In this document: one piece after another, positions 23,053 through 29,959 of the stretch
How positions within the stretch are numbered: the first letter of the stretch is position 1
How the letters are laid out: every line of letters begins with the position of its first letter
Source: Sphingomonas caseinilytica
GTDB taxonomy: Bacteria; Pseudomonadota; Alphaproteobacteria; Sphingomonadales; Sphingomonadaceae
Assembly (NCBI RefSeq): GCF_023516455.1
Contig: NZ_JAMGBA010000001.1
Span: 186,001-250,000, forward strand
DNA: 64,000 nt
Reading direction: 5' to 3'
Made by a program: the position numbers and the translations under genes
The notes under the pieces: model-generated
What the model was told of the DNA's origin: nothing
What the model saw: the letters and a program-made list of their open reading frames with translations, nothing else
Database searches by the model: none

Positions 23053-25002
23053 ATGACCGACGAGCTTTATCCGGTGCCCGCCGAATGGGCCGAAAAGGCG
23101 ATCATCAACGCCGATCGCTATGCCGCCAAGTATCGCGAGTCGGTCGAGGATCCGGACGGGTTCTGGCGCCGCGAAGCGCAGCGGATCGACTGGATCAAGC
23201 CGTTCACGACGGTCAAGGATACCAGCTTCCACGAGGATGACTTCAACATCAGCTGGTTCGGTGACGGAACGCTCAACCTGTCATCGAATTGCCTCGACCG
23301 GCATCTGGCAACACGGGGAAGCGCGACCGCGATCATCTGGGAAGCTGACGATCCCAACGAGCGCGGCATGACTATCAGCTATCGCGAATTGCACAGCATG
23401 GTCTGCCGCTTCGCCAACGCGCTGAAGGCGCAAGGGGTGAAGCGCGGCGATCGGGTGACGATCTATCTTCCGATGGTGCCCGAAGCGGCGGTCGCGATGC
23501 TCGCCTGCGCCCGGATCGGCGCGATCCATTCGGTCGTGTTCGGCGGCTTCTCGCCCGATGCGCTGGCGGGGCGGATCAAGGATTGCGACAGCAGCCTGGT
23601 GATCACGGCGGACGAGGGACTTCGCGGCGGCAGGGTCGTTCCCTTGAAGCATAATGTCGACGAGGCGCTGGATCAGTGCACGTCCGTCACACGGGTCATC
23701 GTCATGCGTCGCACCGATACCGACGTCCCGATGACGGAGGGCCGCGACATCTGGTGGCTGGATGCGGAAGCCGGAGTTACCGCCGACTGCCCGCCGGAAG
23801 AGATGGGCGCGGAGGACCCGCTGTTCATCCTCTACACGTCCGGATCGACCGGCCAGCCCAAGGGCGTCCTGCACACCACCGGCGGCTATGCGGTCTGGAC
23901 GTCGATGACGCACGAATATGTCTTCGATTACCGCCCCGGTCAGATTTACTGGTGCGCGGCGGACATCGGCTGGGTCACCGGCCACAGCTATATCGTCTAC
24001 GGACCGCTGGCGAATGGCGCGACCATCGTCATGTACGAAGGCGTGCCCAATTGGCCCGATCCCAGCCGGATCTGGCAGGTCGTCGACAAGCACCAGGTCG
24101 AGATCCTCTACACGGCACCGACGGCGATCCGGGCACTGGAGCGTGAAGGCGATGAATGGGTCAAAAAGACATCGCGTAAGTCGTTGAAATTGCTGGGCAC
24201 GGTCGGCGAGCCGATCAACCCGGAAGCCTGGGGCTGGTATCACAGCGTCGTGGGCGAGGGGCGTTGCCCGATCGTCGACACCTATTGGCAGACGGAAACC
24301 GGCGCGACGATGATCTCGCCAATGCCCGGCGCGACCGATTTGAAGCCGGGCAGCGCAAGCAAGCCGATGTTCGGAGTGAAGCCGGCGCTGGTGGATGACA
24401 AGGGCCACATATTGGAGGGTGCCGTAAGCGGCGCCCTGGTGATCACCGATAGCTGGCCCGGCCAGATGCGGAGCGTCTGGGGCGATCCGGCGCGCTTCTT
24501 CAACACCTATTTCACCCACTATCCGGGCTATTATTTTACCGGCGACGGCTGCCGGCGGGACGAAGACGGCTATTACTGGATCACGGGGCGGATCGACGAC
24601 GTCATCAACGTGTCCGGCCACCGGCTGGGTACAGCGGAGATCGAGAGCGCCTTGGTCGCTCACGAAAAAGTGGCAGAGGCTGCGGTCGTGGGCATGCCGC
24701 ACGAGATCAAGGGTCAGGGCATTTACGCCTATGTGACGGTCAACGCCGGCTGCCAGGTAGACGAGAAGTTGCGAACCGAACTGATCCACTGGGTGCGCGC
24801 CGAGATCGGACCGATCGCGACACCGGACGTCATCCAGTTCGCGCCAGCGCTCCCCAAGACCAGGTCGGGGAAGATCATGCGCCGGATCCTGCGGAAGATC
24901 GCGGAAGGGGATATCTCGCATCTCGGCGATACTTCGACTCTGGCGGACCCGGCAGTTGTCGATGACCTTGTGGCGAACCGGCCCTCTAATGCCGGAGGCT
25001 GA
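23053..25002 (+). CDS. acs: Acetate-CoA ligase (acetyl-CoA synthetase)
   Basis: 649 aa, normal length. AMP-forming motif [17 protein letters not shown] (about 258-274), core motifs [14 protein letters not shown] and TYWQTETGA, the hinge [20 protein letters not shown], and the C-terminal [13 protein letters not shown] with the acetylatable Lys. Makes acetyl-CoA from acetate, ATP and CoA. Ribosome site AAAAGGAGAGG before ATG 23053. Its end overlaps the convergent nucleotidyltransferase gene by 17 bp. Confidence 0.95.
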
Positions 25003-26059
25003 GCAGTCCCGCCTGTCGCCTTAGTTCCGAATATTTGAATCCAATGCCTGGCCGAAGCAGGAACTGGGTCCAGTGGATCGGCAAGGTTCCAAGCAGGCGC
25101 TCGGTCGGTTCGCCGATCCTCGTCATCATCCGCAGCGCGGCTTCGCAAAGCAGTTTGGCGGTCCAATCCTCGGAAAGAAGCCCCTTAAGTCTTGGACTTG
25201 GACCAAGCACCTGAAAGAGCGTGTCGGCCAGCAGCAAAGCCTGTCCGAAAGCCCGGGCCGAGCCGAGCTGCTGGGATTGCCGGTACAGACTCTCAACGTC
25301 TTCGCCGCTTTTCCCGGCGAGCCGCGCTGCGAAATCGGAAATCCACTTCAGCCGGAACCAGGCGCTCGAGGCTCCGTGGACGGCGAGGTAGGCGAGTAGT
25401 TCCTCCTCGGCCAACGTCGGCAGTCTGATGTCTGGCGCGACCTCAACCCATTGGTTCGGGGAGTGGACGTCGATTGTCGGGATTAGCAGCGGATTGTCGG
25501 CGAGGCGTGTGTGAAGCTCGACATGAAAGGCGCCGTCCCGGTCCCAGACGGACTCCTTGCTACGGGCGTGCCAAGCCGAAAGTTTGGCCGCATCCGCCGG
25601 AATTTGAAGAGTGTAGCCGAGCGAGGAAATCAAGTCGGATGCTTGTTCCAGGTCCCGCGGGTCGATCAGAAGATCGATGTCCCAGCCCATCTTGAGGAGG
25701 GGGTAACGGTAGGCCAGCGCCCCGACCGTCAGCCCTTTGACGAAGAGCAGGGGGACTCCGGCTCCCTCGAATGCCTGGAGAAGCGCTTGGCTCTCCTTCG
25801 CGATACCGAGGTTCGTGGCTGCAACCGATCGGGCATCCGACGACAGTGCTTCCTTCGCTGGATGAGGGAGGTCTTCGAACTTCGCCAGCGCATTCCACAC
25901 CAGCCCCTGAACCCGGTGCCGCCGCGCAAGCTCAACGAGCAGGTTCCAATCGAGACCAGGCAAAATTTCGGGTCGCGCATGCTCCGGCGCTGATCGGAAA
26001 TTCCATTGGCAGCAGCGGGTCAGCAGCGAGAATTCCGGTCCGATCGCTAATGGCTTCAC
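24986..26059 (-). CDS. Nucleotidyltransferase-family protein of the RiPP locus
   Basis: 357 aa. The central [17 protein letters not shown] stretch (Lys108-Gly109) and GWDIDLLID (Asp127, Asp129) match the uncharacterised nucleotidyltransferase family (NTP_transf_5) that often accompanies lasso peptide genes carrying an HPr-kinase-like protein. The two Asp would bind metal-NTP. It starts in a 4-bp overlap (ATGA) with the cyclase gene and is the last gene of the operon. I infer it modifies the peptide, possibly at a phosphate placed by the kinase. The exact reaction is not established from this sequence. Confidence 0.78.
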
Positions 26060-27987
26060 CGTTCGTTCCGGCCTTCGACATAGTCGATGAAACGCGCGGT
26101 CAGCAGGCCGCGGGGGACTGCGAACTCCCGCGCAAAAAATTGCTGCGGGTCGGTTTCGGTATCCTCAGGCCAATCTTCCAGCGCGGCGCGCAGTCTCGGC
26201 AAATCAAGCATCTCGGCCATTCGCTCATCTTTCGCCAGCCGATCCAGCTCGGCAACGAGGTCGGATCGACGTCGCCCGAGGCGAAGGAGCCAGTCGGCAT
26301 CCCAACGGCCATTCAACCGATTGGTCCGCTGCTCTTCCGGCATGATCCCCTTGGCCATTTCCTTGGCAAGCCAGCGCGTACGGCCATCCCTCATGAACAT
26401 TTCCACCGGAAGGCCGAAGCAAAATTCAACGAAGGGGCGATAGGCCATCGGATCACGCAGCGCGACGCCATACATTTGTTCGAATGCCTGATAGACCTCC
26501 GCCGCGTCGGCATCGCCGTTCATGAAGAGCATCTTCTGTGCGTGCCTGCGGTTGCGGGGCTGATACCGTTCGATGCCGACGCCTGACTGCTTCAAGCGGC
26601 GTTCTGCCCCCGAGATCTTGCGATACTTGCTTCCAAGCGGCTGCATCAGGTCCAGCAGGGACCGATGCCTGGGCTTGGCAACTTTCCTTGCGGCGCTCCA
26701 AACGAAGTCCGGCATCAATGGCATCAGGCAGCGAAGCAGGAATCGTCCAAACACCGAGCGATCGTCATTGTTGATGCAGGTAAGGGCTCGCCACAGCTGC
26801 CGCCACCTGCCAGTCAGGAAGTACTCAACATAGCCCCACTCGCCCTTGTCGCTGAAGGTGTAGTTGCCCCACTCGGCCAGCAGCAGCACGTCACAGCGTT
26901 CGCGCGCGGCCCCCGACAGAAGGCCATGGAAGACATACATGTTGCTCAGCCCTGAGGGAGCCGCGCCCATCAGGTGGAAGAAATCATTCCAGCGGTAATC
27001 GTGCTCATAACCTTCATTTGCGGTGAAATGGGGTTCGAGGCGCGGATGCATGGCGGCGAAAGCCTCGACCATGGGCCGCTCGTTGCCGAGGAAATATTCC
27101 TGGACCCGCTCGTCGTAGCCAGTTTCCGGATGAAAGGTGAAGGTCGGCAGCGCTTCGTCGGCGGCCATGCATTCCAGCGCCCGAAGTGCGACTTGCGGAC
27201 TATCGAGGCCCGCCGAGAGCGTTGCCCCCGGTCGTTGAAAGCCCGCCAAGCAGGTACGGACCCCGTCATCCAGAAGTTCGCTGGCCCGCGCGACATATTC
27301 CGCATCGCCGCCAAGGCGAACCGCCGGCATAGCAAACAGGTCATAATATTGGCGGAGCACTCGTGACCTACCGCGCCGAAGCTCGACGATGTGACCGGTC
27401 GGCACCTTGAACAGCTTCTCGAAATAGGTCGCTTCCAGGTCGCTGAAGTTCAGCAGTGCGCTGTCAGCCAGCCTTTCCTCATTGAGCCTTTGTTCTACGC
27501 CGGCGGCAAAAATGGCCCGCGGAACCGACGATGCAGCGACGAGGCCCTCGTCGTGGAAATAGTGGAGGGGCGGCGCCCTCAACGGACTTCGCGACAGACG
27601 CAACGTTTCGCTGTCCGGGTCGGCGATGATCGCGCAATATTCGCCGATGATCCGCCGGTCGGCATCGTCTCCCCACCGCTCGACAGCCAAGCCGTAGAGC
27701 AGGGCAGGGTTCGACGGATCGGCCCCCATCTCGGCAGCAATCGATGCAGCATTGTCGAAATAGCCGTGAAACGCTGCGATTCGGCCGCTGGGCATGGCCG
27801 ATGGCTTCCAGGAGCGGCTCTTGGCAGCCGAGGAACGCAGCTCCCGATATGCGAAGTGCAAGCCACCGATGCTGGCTGAGCCAGCATGGCCGCCAATGCC
27901 GGCGCACAGTGACGATGCGAGCCGCTGCGAGAGTAGCTGAGGGCCTTCGTCGGCAGGGCGGCCCCAGGGCCATGCGAAAGCGAGCAT
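26056..27987 (-). CDS. Asparagine-synthase-like cyclase of a lasso-type RiPP (protein C)
   Basis: 643 aa. Fold and order are those of class B asparagine synthases, but the protein does not start with Met-Cys, so the glutaminase site is absent, as in lasso cyclases (McjC type). The ATP-pyrophosphatase loop is LSAGLDSPQ (Ser258-Ser263). In lasso systems this enzyme adenylates an Asp or Glu side chain and closes the ring onto the core N-terminus. The nearby precursor has no such acidic core residue. No strong ribosome site is seen at ATG 27987. Confidence 0.82.
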   Translation of the reverse strand: MLAFAWPWGRPADEGPQLLSQRLASSLCAGIGGHAGSASIGGLHFAYRELRSSAAKSRSWKPSAMPSGRIAAFHGYFDNAASIAAEMGADPSNPALLYGLAVERWGDDADRRIIGEYCAIIADPDSETLRLSRSPLRAPPLHYFHDEGLVAASSVPRAIFAAGVEQRLNEERLADSALLNFSDLEATYFEKLFKVPTGHIVELRRGRSRVLRQYYDLFAMPAVRLGGDAEYVARASELLDDGVRTCLAGFQRPGATLSAGLDSPQVALRALECMAADEALPTFTFHPETGYDERVQEYFLGNERPMVEAFAAMHPRLEPHFTANEGYEHDYRWNDFFHLMGAAPSGLSNMYVFHGLLSGAARERCDVLLLAEWGNYTFSDKGEWGYVEYFLTGRWRQLWRALTCINNDDRSVFGRFLLRCLMPLMPDFVWSAARKVAKPRHRSLLDLMQPLGSKYRKISGAERRLKQSGVGIERYQPRNRRHAQKMLFMNGDADAAEVYQAFEQMYGVALRDPMAYRPFVEFCFGLPVEMFMRDGRTRWLAKEMAKGIMPEEQRTNRLNGRWDADWLLRLGRRRSDLVAELDRLAKDERMAEMLDLPRLRAALEDWPEDTETDPQQFFAREFAVPRGLLTARFIDYVEGRNER

Positions 27988-28062
27988 CAGGTGCCCAAAG
28001 TAAATGAGAAGGGCCTAGAGTTCGCCAATCGGAACGCGCCCAGGCATTGGTGTCAGCTAAGC

Positions 28063-28185
28063 TCAACTTTTGTTGTTGGTCGCCTGGGACAATGGCGTCT
28101 GTTTTCCGGCGACGTCCTTGATCTGGCCGAGGCGAACCAGGTTCGGCCTGGTCCATGCGGGCCGCTTGACCGAATTTTCCTTCAT
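28063..28185 (-). CDS. Candidate RiPP precursor peptide with lasso-type leader, 40 aa
   Basis: From ATG 28185 (GAGG about 8 bases upstream) the frame gives 40 residues, beginning MKENSVKRPAW and ending QATNNKS. Trp11, Pro14, Leu16 and Gly20 occupy the positions of the lasso leader motif YxxPxLxxxGxxxxxT; the usual Thr is Ala26. Everything from Gly27 to Ser40 lacks Asp and Glu, so a normal lasso ring at core position 7-9 cannot form. The C-terminal residue is Ser, the site phosphorylated in lasso peptides with an HPr-kinase-like enzyme. Located between the protease and cyclase genes on the same strand. A longer frame to 28251 lacks a ribosome site. Confidence 0.7.
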   Translation of the reverse strand: MKENSVKRPAWTRPNLVRLGQIKDVAGKQTPLSQATNNKS

Positions 28186-28275
28186 GCCGAACCTCGCAGG
28201 TAAAACGCACGCAACGGTGCCTGATCGTGCAAGTTTTGCGTTGATAAGCACGGGTTTGCAAGAGTTTGCCGCGCC

Positions 28276-28707
28276 TTAGTTTCCTTCCGGATTTCCAGCG
28301 CCCAATCGCAGCGTTTCGACCCACGGCCCCGGCAAATCGCCAATGACGATTTCACCCGCCACCTCCACCCATGCATGGAGGGGATCGGCAAAGCGGCGCT
28401 CCGCTTCGGGTCGGACCGCAAAAACAACCGCATGGTCGATCTGGCGGCGTCGCAGCATCCAGCTCAGCGCCATCGCGCGCGGAAGGCATTTGGTCGGAAA
28501 CGGAATTCGCCGAGCCGCCCAATCGACATTGGCAGCGAGCGTTCGGGCGAGGCCCGTATCGGAACCGGGGCCGCTTCCACTGCTCCTGCCAAGCGAATGT
28601 CGCCAGCGCTCGAAGAGGAACGAACCGATCAGCAGGCGAGCAGCGCACAAGGCCATCATCGCCTCTCCGGTACGCAGCTTCGATCGCCAGCGCTCAATCA
28701 ACGTCAA
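28276..28707 (-). CDS. Lasso-type peptide biosynthesis B2 protein (transglutaminase-like leader peptidase)
   Basis: 143 aa. Cys74 (FPTKCLPRA), His111 (PLHAWVEV) and Asp124 (IGDLPG) form the Cys-His-Asp triad of the B2 family, and the segment before Cys74 is a helix rich in Arg/Leu as in other B2 proteins. It removes the leader after the RRE protein has delivered the precursor. Overlaps the PqqD-like gene by 14 bp; 90 bp separate it from the precursor. Normal length. Confidence 0.88.
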   Translation of the reverse strand: MTLIERWRSKLRTGEAMMALCAARLLIGSFLFERWRHSLGRSSGSGPGSDTGLARTLAANVDWAARRIPFPTKCLPRAMALSWMLRRRQIDHAVVFAVRPEAERRFADPLHAWVEVAGEIVIGDLPGPWVETLRLGAGNPEGN

Positions 28708-28960
28708 CGAGGCCTACCGCCGCCAGCTGTCCGAGGAATGCATCGACGTCGAAGCCAATATCCGCGCCCTGGCTTGCGAAATGACCGGAAAGTTCGATCG
28801 CAAGGTCGGACCGGCTCCGCGTTCCGTCGATCAGCCGCCAGATCGTCGCTGCGGTCCCCGCCAGGGAATAGAATTCGCCCGTGCCCAGATGCATGACGAC
28901 GATTTCGTCGTCGATTTCCGTTTCCGTGAACGTCCCGGATCGTTTGACGACGGTGGTCAT
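28694..28960 (-). CDS. PqqD-family RRE protein (lasso B1)
   Basis: 88 aa winged-helix RiPP recognition element. Typical features are the beta-hairpin EIVVMHLGTGEFYSLAGTAATIWRLIDG, where the LGTGEFYSL stretch is the classic PqqD signature, and a final helix. It binds the YxxPxL-type leader and presents the peptide to the protease. ATGA overlap with the kinase gene upstream. Confidence 0.9.
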   Translation of the reverse strand: MTTVVKRSGTFTETEIDDEIVVMHLGTGEFYSLAGTAATIWRLIDGTRSRSDLAIELSGHFASQGADIGFDVDAFLGQLAAVGLVDVD

Positions 28961-29817
28961 GCGCTCAACTGGCCGCGGTTTCGAATATAGTCGGCAACCA
29001 TCGCAATGCCCTCATCGAACCTGCTGGCATCTCGCGGCCTAACGAAACGTGACATGGCCATCTGCCGCGCCAATCGGGCGCGATGGGCGAAAAGTCCGGC
29101 GCGATCGAACCGGCGGGCCGCTTCGAACAAATAGGCGGTCTGATGATCGTCATCCAATCTGACGAACCGCTCGGCCCCGGCAATTCGCGAAACCGCCGGA
29201 TCAGGTCCATCTTCAAGGAAGATCAGTTCGGCGAGCGGCATCACGGTTTCGATCATTCCTCCGGCCGGGCTTGCGTAATATTTGTCGTAGGTCGCGGAGA
29301 CCTTTTCTTCCTGGATGGCCCCGGCGAGCGCGAACGCGTCAGGGCATAGCTTCAACCTCTTGTGCCCTGGCAAACAGACGAGCCGAAGCGGATCCGACAA
29401 ATCCAGGACCAAAGTGTCGTCGCAGAACATCGAAAAGCCGTGGCGTCCAAGTGCCGCCGCCAGTGTGGATTTGCCGGCGCCGGCGGGCCCGGTGAAGGCG
29501 AACACTTCGCCTTCATGGGCAACGGCCGACGCATGGATCGGCACCAGCCCATTCATGCTCGCGATGGCGGCATAGACGCTGCCGTTCAGCCAGAGCGTTT
29601 CCTCGCTGGCGTCAGCAGCGATGCCTTGCTGGATCGTTAGGCCTTCGCCGCGGCGGTAATAGAAATAATGATCGCCCTCGGCGCGCAGGAGAAACGCTTC
29701 CTCGCCCATCTGCCAGCTCATCGGCTGGAGGGCCTCGTCGCACAATCCAATAGGAACCGGACCGTAACGGGCCCGGGTTTCACGCTCCAGCAGCAGTTCG
29801 GCAGGCGATCTTGCCAT
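28957..29817 (-). CDS. HPr-kinase-like protein of the RiPP locus
   Basis: 286 aa from ATG 29817 with AAGGGG just upstream; the longer frame reaches into tRNA-Lys and is rejected. The P-loop GPAGAGKST (about 110-117) is followed by a FCDDTLVLDL segment, as in the C-terminal domain of HPr kinase/phosphorylase. Related kinases in lasso clusters (for example PadeK of paeninodin) phosphorylate the C-terminal Ser of the precursor; the precursor here ends in Ser. First gene of the operon, 67 bp after tRNA-Lys in the same direction. Confidence 0.82.
   Translation of the reverse strand: MARSPAELLLERETRARYGPVPIGLCDEALQPMSWQMGEEAFLLRAEGDHYFYYRRGEGLTIQQGIAADASEETLWLNGSVYAAIASMNGLVPIHASAVAHEGEVFAFTGPAGAGKSTLAAALGRHGFSMFCDDTLVLDLSDPLRLVCLPGHKRLKLCPDAFALAGAIQEEKVSATYDKYYASPAGGMIETVMPLAELIFLEDGPDPAVSRIAGAERFVRLDDDHQTAYLFEAARRFDRAGLFAHRARLARQMAMSRFVRPRDASRFDEGIAMVADYIRNRGQLSA

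Positions 29818-29883: not shown

Positions 29884-29959
<76 letters not shown>

Follow-up and report, generated by a model that had tools for sequence, protein, structure and literature searches.

Conserved glutamine at the putative ring-acceptor position in a lasso-type RiPP family of sphingomonads

A lasso-type gene cluster for a ribosomally synthesised and post-translationally modified peptide (RiPP) in Sphingomonas caseinilytica encodes a precursor whose core has neither Asp nor Glu, and comparison with its relatives suggests that a glutamine, core Gln8, stands where a lasso cyclase ordinarily finds the acid that closes the ring. The cluster lies in a 64,000-nucleotide stretch of contig NZ_JAMGBA010000001.1 (assembly GCF_023516455.1, positions 186,001 to 250,000), here called the window. 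We consider it somewhat more probable than not that this is a lasso-type RiPP pathway with a carboxamide as the ring-closing residue, namely core Gln8 or, in a few relatives, Asn9 or Gln9. The acceptor role of Gln8 is supported by comparison; we infer a threaded shape and, as the preferred chemical outcome, an amidine. Gln at this place in dozens of related bacteria suggests an undescribed ring bond. Among the options that a preliminary description of this DNA had offered for the acid-free core, a different bond made by the cyclase now appears the best supported; that description had passed over Gln34 of the precursor, equivalent to core Gln8, which falls at the acceptor place and is the core residue conserved across the family.

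The window precursor and its relatives

Lasso rings are defined via an Asp or Glu side chain (PMC10368454, PMC8498205; statements on sources cited by PMC number refer to parts of their texts). The window precursor, described earlier as a 40-aa product of positions 28063-28185 with no Asp or Glu in residues 27-40, reads MKENSVKRPAWTRPNLVRLGQIKDVAGKQTPLSQATNNKS, which bears that description out; no acid is present at core positions 7-9, and the sole carboxylate of the core is its C terminus. The leader carries Trp11, Pro14 and Leu16, with Val rather than Thr at position -2.

Relatives were gathered from several anchors. The window cyclase (C), used as a query against 197 genomes, matched in 22 including the window's own (12 of them at E <= 1e-71, the other 10 more weakly), and a contig scan added one relative, a Novosphingobium metagenome-assembled genome (MAG). 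Of 396 genomes of the order searched with a full-length precursor profile (A1, 11 seeds), 80 matched at E values of 0.1 or less, and places at E up to 1.2e-4 were followed; a leader-only profile, made from 38 leaders, was run over 397 genomes of the family. Precursors were read from relative loci of 5-20 kb. This search of sphingomonad genomes and alignment of cores, which the preliminary description had proposed, yielded 62 distinct precursors from 59 genomes: the MAG and 58 others, which fall into 17 genus groups. As profile A1 includes core columns, its 33 new precursors lean towards Gln8; the C-anchored and leader-anchored sets are independent of the core. The leader-only profile was made mostly from leaders of Gln8 members, and favours the clade, not the residue.

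A conserved glutamine at core position 8

With core numbering starting after Val/Ile(-2)-x(-1), Gln occupies position 8 in 51 of the 62 precursors, spread over 15 genus groups of one family and the Novosphingobium MAG. The other 11 carry Glu8 (three), Asp8 (one), Asp9 (three), Asn9 (two), Gln9 (one) or Asn8-Gln9 (one), and a residue of the set Gln, Asn, Glu and Asp is found at position 8 or 9 in all 62. There is no acid at positions 7-9 in 41 cores, all of which have Gln or Asn at 8 or 9, and no acid at all in 35; by its core, the window precursor belongs to the amide majority. Over 2000 within-core shuffles, no column held more than 15 Gln (mean 8.7), compared with the 51 observed at core 8. 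The remaining core positions are variable, and core length ranges from 12 to 26 while position 8 stays fixed. In the sets independent of the core, Gln8 is found in 10 of 11 C-anchored precursors, the other having Asp9 (none was recognised at L029, L037 or the weaker C matches), and in 13 of the 17 new precursors from the leader-only profile, the rest having Glu8 (one), Asp8 (one) or Asp9 (two). The Gln8 codon is CAG in 38 cases and CAA in 13, CAG to GAG being a single step.

In 61 of 62 precursors, the same number of residues separates the leader Pro from the start of the core, and in 51 a Gln lies 23 residues past the leader Trp/Tyr. Position -2 is Val or Ile throughout, followed by Ala(-1) as the last leader residue in 58 cases and by Gly or Lys in the remaining four; Trp, Pro, Gly and Ala(-1) are invariant across 38 aligned leaders. 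The C-terminal residue is Ser in all but one precursor, which has Thr.

The preliminary description had envisaged that homologous precursors might carry an acid and that the window gene might be a frameshifted copy. The first part stands in so far as Glu8, Asp8 or Asp9 replaces the amide in 7 of 62 precursors and Asp accompanies Gln8 in 14 more. The second does not: the window frame is intact, and because it matches the homologues to their final residues (N.KS), a frameshift is not indicated.

We regard it as unlikely that residue 8 stays unbonded, with a linear phosphorylated peptide as the product or with C acting on the C-terminal carboxylate to give an amide, a nitrile or a head-to-tail ring. 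The C terminus is the only carboxylate available in the window core, C-terminal Ser is kept in 61 of 62 precursors, and action on C termini is known among asparagine-synthetase-like RiPP enzymes (PMC13060819). This would, however, leave unexplained why the sole conserved core residue stands at the ring-acceptor offset, why the acids that replace it do so at position 8 or 9, and why position 8 is constant across cores of such different length.

Some cores have features of their own. Only two of the 62 start with Pro (L094 and L103, both with Glu8). At L035:8602 and 8805 (+ strand), tandem precursors precede one C, one with the acid-free core GKPVPFRQAHNNRKS and the other with Asp9 beside Gln8 (GKPVPVLQDAGNRKS). 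L150 and L152 are second lasso-type loci in genomes that hold a Gln8 precursor (G533, G582), having the core pattern [AS]IV..PGFDT.NNHGS, with Asp9, and 'DVG' replacing 'DVA'.

Controls outside the sphingomonad family

Control precursors were taken from Azospirillum (two), Tistrella and Priestia, and from a class-wide search with the Thalassobaculum cyclase (385 genomes, 17 matching). They were chosen by eye and are non-exhaustive, covering five of the six named records L191-L196 (none was seen in L195) and 10 of the 30 class loci L197-L226; the L197 control is the same gene as in L196, and the kinase was checked in a minority. An Asp or Glu lies 22-25 residues past the leader Trp/Tyr in 14 of these 15 precursors, at +23 in seven and at +22 or +25 in the other seven, with the Priestia and L208 controls having an extra acid closer to the leader. 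The fifteenth, on a Thalassobaculum plasmid (L196:6765-7135), reads GPSTFSSGQAAHVS after Thr-Leu, with no acid, Gln at +23 and the ordinary Thr(-2). It is absent from the listed genes of its record, where the table is incomplete, and a sulfotransferase gene lies downstream of its C; the acid-to-amide switch may have arisen here independently. Because Gln at +23 matches the offset of the predicted ring-closing acid, and because acid and amide forms interchange on the cyclase tree, a carboxamide appears to occupy the ring-acceptor place.

The cyclase

An IQ-TREE quick tree was built from 62 cyclases (52 with amide precursors, nine with acid precursors and one without a precursor), omitting L037-L042, A. 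oryzae, Thalassobaculum and L094, the last being shifted near its end and also left out of alignment A3. L079 was likewise omitted from A3, and the broken C and K of L030 from the alignments. The tree has acid outgroups, followed by an amide-rich clade that holds the acid rows L103, L141 and L138: L103 (Glu8) stands beside the window clade, L141 (Asp8) beside two Gln8 rows, and L138 (Glu8) inside another Gln8 group. A FastTree built before it placed these three rows alike, and grouped L094 (Glu8) with L103. Counting only branches with a Shimodaira-Hasegawa-like approximate likelihood-ratio test (SH-aLRT) value >=95, there are at least four changes between amide and acid.

Across five close C pairs, the nonsynonymous rate (dN) is 0.077-0.154 versus a synonymous rate (dS) of 0.48-1.55. 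The dN/dS of C is about 0.2 for L072/L074 and 0.1 for L082/L086, both pairs having acid-free cores, and C is under purifying selection in these pairs. The predicted structure of the window C has a predicted local distance difference test (pLDDT) score of 94.5 and a predicted template modelling (pTM) score of 0.94, with TsnB9, beta-lactam synthetase and AsnB as best PDB matches, and SxGLDS is retained in nearly all C rows.

Three candidate features of C were dropped, the first two being alignment columns that had at first seemed to separate amide from acid forms. Some cyclases of Glu8 precursors lack Trp352; His/Gly438 is Gly in L082/L086 alongside Gln8, and variable in the window clade; Asn375/Ser379 also occurs in the Priestia paeninodin-type cyclase, making it a general lasso-cyclase feature.

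Proposed ring chemistry

In the scheme that we favour, B1 would bind the leader and B2 would cleave after Val(-2)-Ala(-1), so that the alpha-amine of the first core residue is exposed. The PP-loop ATP pyrophosphatase C would take up the folded core in such a way that Gln8 fills the site of Asp or Glu in an ordinary cyclase, and would adenylate the carboxamide oxygen of Gln8 to an AMP-imidate. Attack by the alpha-amine of the core with loss of AMP would then close the ring as an amidine (-18.01 Da); alternatively, loss of ammonia would leave an ordinary lactam (-17.03 Da). For the unphosphorylated window core, the computed masses are 1472.7583 for the linear form, 1454.7478 for the amidine and 1455.7318 for the lactam, the last two 0.984 Da apart; a nitrile would share the mass of the amidine, and phosphorylation would add 79.9663 to each. 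K would phosphorylate the C-terminal Ser and N may decorate the peptide, by analogy with clusters of the paeninodin and pseudomycoidin types. Reaction of the amide itself is the simplest reading, because an amide stands at the acceptor place, amide and acid exchange in evolution, and Gln is kept though Glu is one base away. More tentatively, sphingomonad lasso cyclases, and possibly an independent Thalassobaculum one, may adenylate the side-chain amide of Gln or Asn to form an amidine ring, a cationic linkage replacing the isopeptide bond.

TilS, ArgG and GuaA are wider precedents for such activation. In the bottromycin-type macroamidine RiPPs, an amine attacks an ATP-activated amide and an amidine ring closes; there a YcaO enzyme acts on a backbone amide, whereas here an asparagine-synthetase-like enzyme would act on a side-chain amide. 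PesC, an asparagine-synthetase-like RiPP enzyme, converts a peptide amide to a nitrile with ATP, via a proposed AMP-imidate (PMC13060819, a 2026 preprint); ATP activation of an amide is thus within reach of an enzyme of this kind. The likeness extends to QueC/ToyM, which also carry out ATP-dependent activation of a primary amide, PesC being the one that is asparagine-synthetase-like and RiPP-acting; in both PesC and QueC/ToyM, however, the reaction ends in a nitrile, formed on a base or at the C terminus of the peptide, and no macrocycle forms.

Less probable, in our judgement, though the strongest of the competing explanations, is that Gln8 is deamidated to Glu, by B2 with its transglutaminase fold or by a host enzyme, or is directly transamidated, the product being an ordinary lasso lactam. 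Glu8 and Asp8 do replace Gln8 at three nested places in the tree, and B2 has a transglutaminase-type Cys-His-Asp site. The transglutaminase fold is known for glutamine chemistry. A Glu lactam would, however, give Gln no advantage over Glu, yet Gln is found in 51 of 62 precursors, with CAG and CAA both used. Codon-usage gene maps were drawn for six loci; the Glu8 locus L103 and the Gln8 locus L032 both have K-B1-B2-A-C and then an ABC-exporter-like gene (named from sequence), and differ beyond that. No extra deamidase gene was seen in the Gln8 locus in this one map pair, which also speaks against deamidation. An all-against-all clustering of open reading frames (ORFs) for an extra conserved gene was dropped, as shadow ORFs swamped the result.

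Several points weigh against the scheme with a carboxamide acceptor. The comparison fits amidine and lactam alike. Asp is present at 7 and/or 9 in 14 of the 51 Gln8 cores, and an ordinary ring could close there. Glu8 is essential for production of microcin J25, so at least that cyclase accepts no substitute (PMC8498205). In the C alignment, no residue was found that tracks amide versus acid, the motifs being common to both forms. The quick tree contains a long Priestia row, and the makers of the tool advise less trust in its starred branches. Finally, two relatives of the window's own genus have decayed clusters: in L030 (G069) C is broken and a stop interrupts K, next to a Gln8 precursor that is open, and at L029 (G029) C is present, with precursor, B1, B2 and K not found nearby. 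These two, together with L027, which has no adjoining B2 (there is one elsewhere in its genome), lend something to the idea that mutation removed the acid from the window gene in a decaying cluster. We think this very improbable for the window, where all genes are open and the motifs intact, and where an amide without acid at 7-9 represents the majority state (41 of 62); the earlier suggestion of a decayed gene likewise loses ground, given that 51 of 62 homologues share this Gln.

Organisation of the window cluster

The six genes form a run K-B1-B2-A-C-N, all on the minus strand with all frames open (Table 1), flanked by a tRNA-Lys gene (29884-29959) and an acetyl-CoA-synthetase-like gene (23053-25002, the name read from sequence). 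The locus has the RiPP recognition element (RRE) in B1, the B2 with Cys-His-Asp, and the asparagine-synthetase-like C of a lasso-type cluster; by its residues, it also has the HPr-like kinase with H, GxxGxGKS and DD, and the C-terminal Ser, of the paeninodin type. Family matches and residues thus confirm the earlier account of a lasso-type locus with an RRE, a B2 with Cys74/His111/Asp124, a cyclase lacking the glutaminase Cys and an HPr-kinase-like protein. B1 matches the PqqD/RRE family PF05402 (1.5e-14), and B2 matches NF033537 (1.4e-18), above the model cut-off (67.5 vs 33 bits). C matches PF00733 (9.8e-18), its best NCBIfam match being 'lasso peptide isopeptide bond-forming cyclase' (1.7e-30), under the model cut-off (106.2 vs 525 bits), and its N-terminus, MLAF, has no Cys at position 2. 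K matches HprK-related kinase A (3.2e-10), again under the cut-off (39.6 vs 200), and contains a P-loop (GPAGAGKST) and CDD; the motif residues are invariant across 11 aligned kinases.

The open frame of K extends to GTG 29895, and because this falls within the tRNA-Lys gene, translation probably starts at the in-frame ATG 29817. The earlier locus span of 26056..29817 is therefore upheld at its K start, and falls short at the other end, where the cluster runs on to the N gene.

Table 1. Features of the lasso-type cluster in the window
Feature	Positions	Strand	Basis
A, precursor, 40 aa	28063..28185	-	ATG 28185, stop 28063; family alignment
Leader, residues 1-26	28108-28185	-	Precursor reading and family alignment
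Core, residues 27-40 GKQTPLSQATNNKS	28066-28107	-	Precursor reading and family alignment
CAG codon of Gln34 (core Gln8), 23 residues past Trp11; proposed ring acceptor	28084..28086	-	Family comparison
Ser40, C-terminal, likely phosphorylation site	28066..28068	-	Ser in 61/62 precursors; role by likeness to paeninodin-type kinases (PMC9266682)
C, 643-aa asparagine-synthetase-like cyclase; PP-loop at 258-263 (SAGLDS); glutaminase Cys absent from N-domain	26056..27987	-	
B2, leader peptidase, Cys74/His111/Asp124	28276..28707	-	Family match and residues
B1, PqqD-like precursor recognition protein	28694..28960	-	Family match
K, HPr-kinase-like protein, taken from ATG 29817	28957..29817	-	Family match and motifs
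N, NTP_transf_5 nucleotidyltransferase, overlaps end of C	24986..26059	-	PF14907 1e-42

Split clusters and reach of the searches

In many relatives, tblastn searches with the window B2 and K gave no match next to C, though divergent copies could escape such a search. Split loci are L031, L034, L035, L072-L081, L083, L085, L087-L089, L091, L093, L099-L102, L137, L140, L143, L147 and L153. A PF13471 (B2-family) protein is present in all 28 split-cluster genomes searched, far from C in 27 and about 8 kb away in G504; in L180, L182 and L190 the distant B2-family gene adjoins other K- or B1-like genes, and in some genomes such proteins may serve another cluster. An HprK-like match was found in 24 of 24 genomes searched, with a best E of about 1e-23 to 1e-30 in 22 of them (other than G000 and G050).

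Such split arrangements, with B2 elsewhere in many relatives, are what might be said for the earlier suggestion that the true substrate is a different precursor elsewhere in the genome. This is the least probable explanation of all: the full-length and leader-only profiles each gave one match in the window genome, and no second precursor, although a precursor of another type would escape them.

No precursor was counted at L029, L037-L042 or L154-L156, and the weak C matches L018-L023 were scanned in short loci only. At L154-L156 no C was found by tblastn, L155 having a short leader-like ORF that was left uncounted. A search of plasmids with K gave three distant matches, and a class-level leader search of 289 genomes recovered the window genome together with two partial matches (E about 0.008).

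Relation to known systems and significance

Lasso precursors with Val or Ile at -2 have been reported from Sphingomonadales, and are probably the present family (PMC10368454). The same source shows B2 cleavage with Ile at -2 for BsfA, which resembles the present precursors in its Ile/Val(-2) and kinase cluster; it differs in that cyclisation was assigned to Asp8, with the mature product undetected, and those parts of the text make no mention of an amide acceptor. Paeninodin, pseudomycoidin and SyanA/SyanK share B1, B2, C, an HPr-like kinase and a C-terminal Ser as kinase site, and the pseudomycoidin cluster also has a nucleotidyltransferase (PMC9266682); their rings, however, are on Asp or Glu (by the definition of lasso peptides, not from the SyanA sequence), whereas here Gln8, or Asn9 or Gln9, would take that place. 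The unusual Asn of metanodin is ring position 1, not the acceptor (PMC12670498). In those parts of the open-licence literature that were covered, the SyanA papers being outside that scope, no report of Gln or Asn as a lasso ring acceptor was found.

Searches that require Asp or Glu at positions 7-9 would miss these clusters, despite their presence in 15 genus groups and a MAG. If Gln or Asn is indeed the acceptor, lasso cyclases would be more versatile than has been thought, and the natural Glu8 and Gln8 relatives would provide a system in which to study how an enzyme of the asparagine-synthetase fold chooses between carboxylate and carboxamide.

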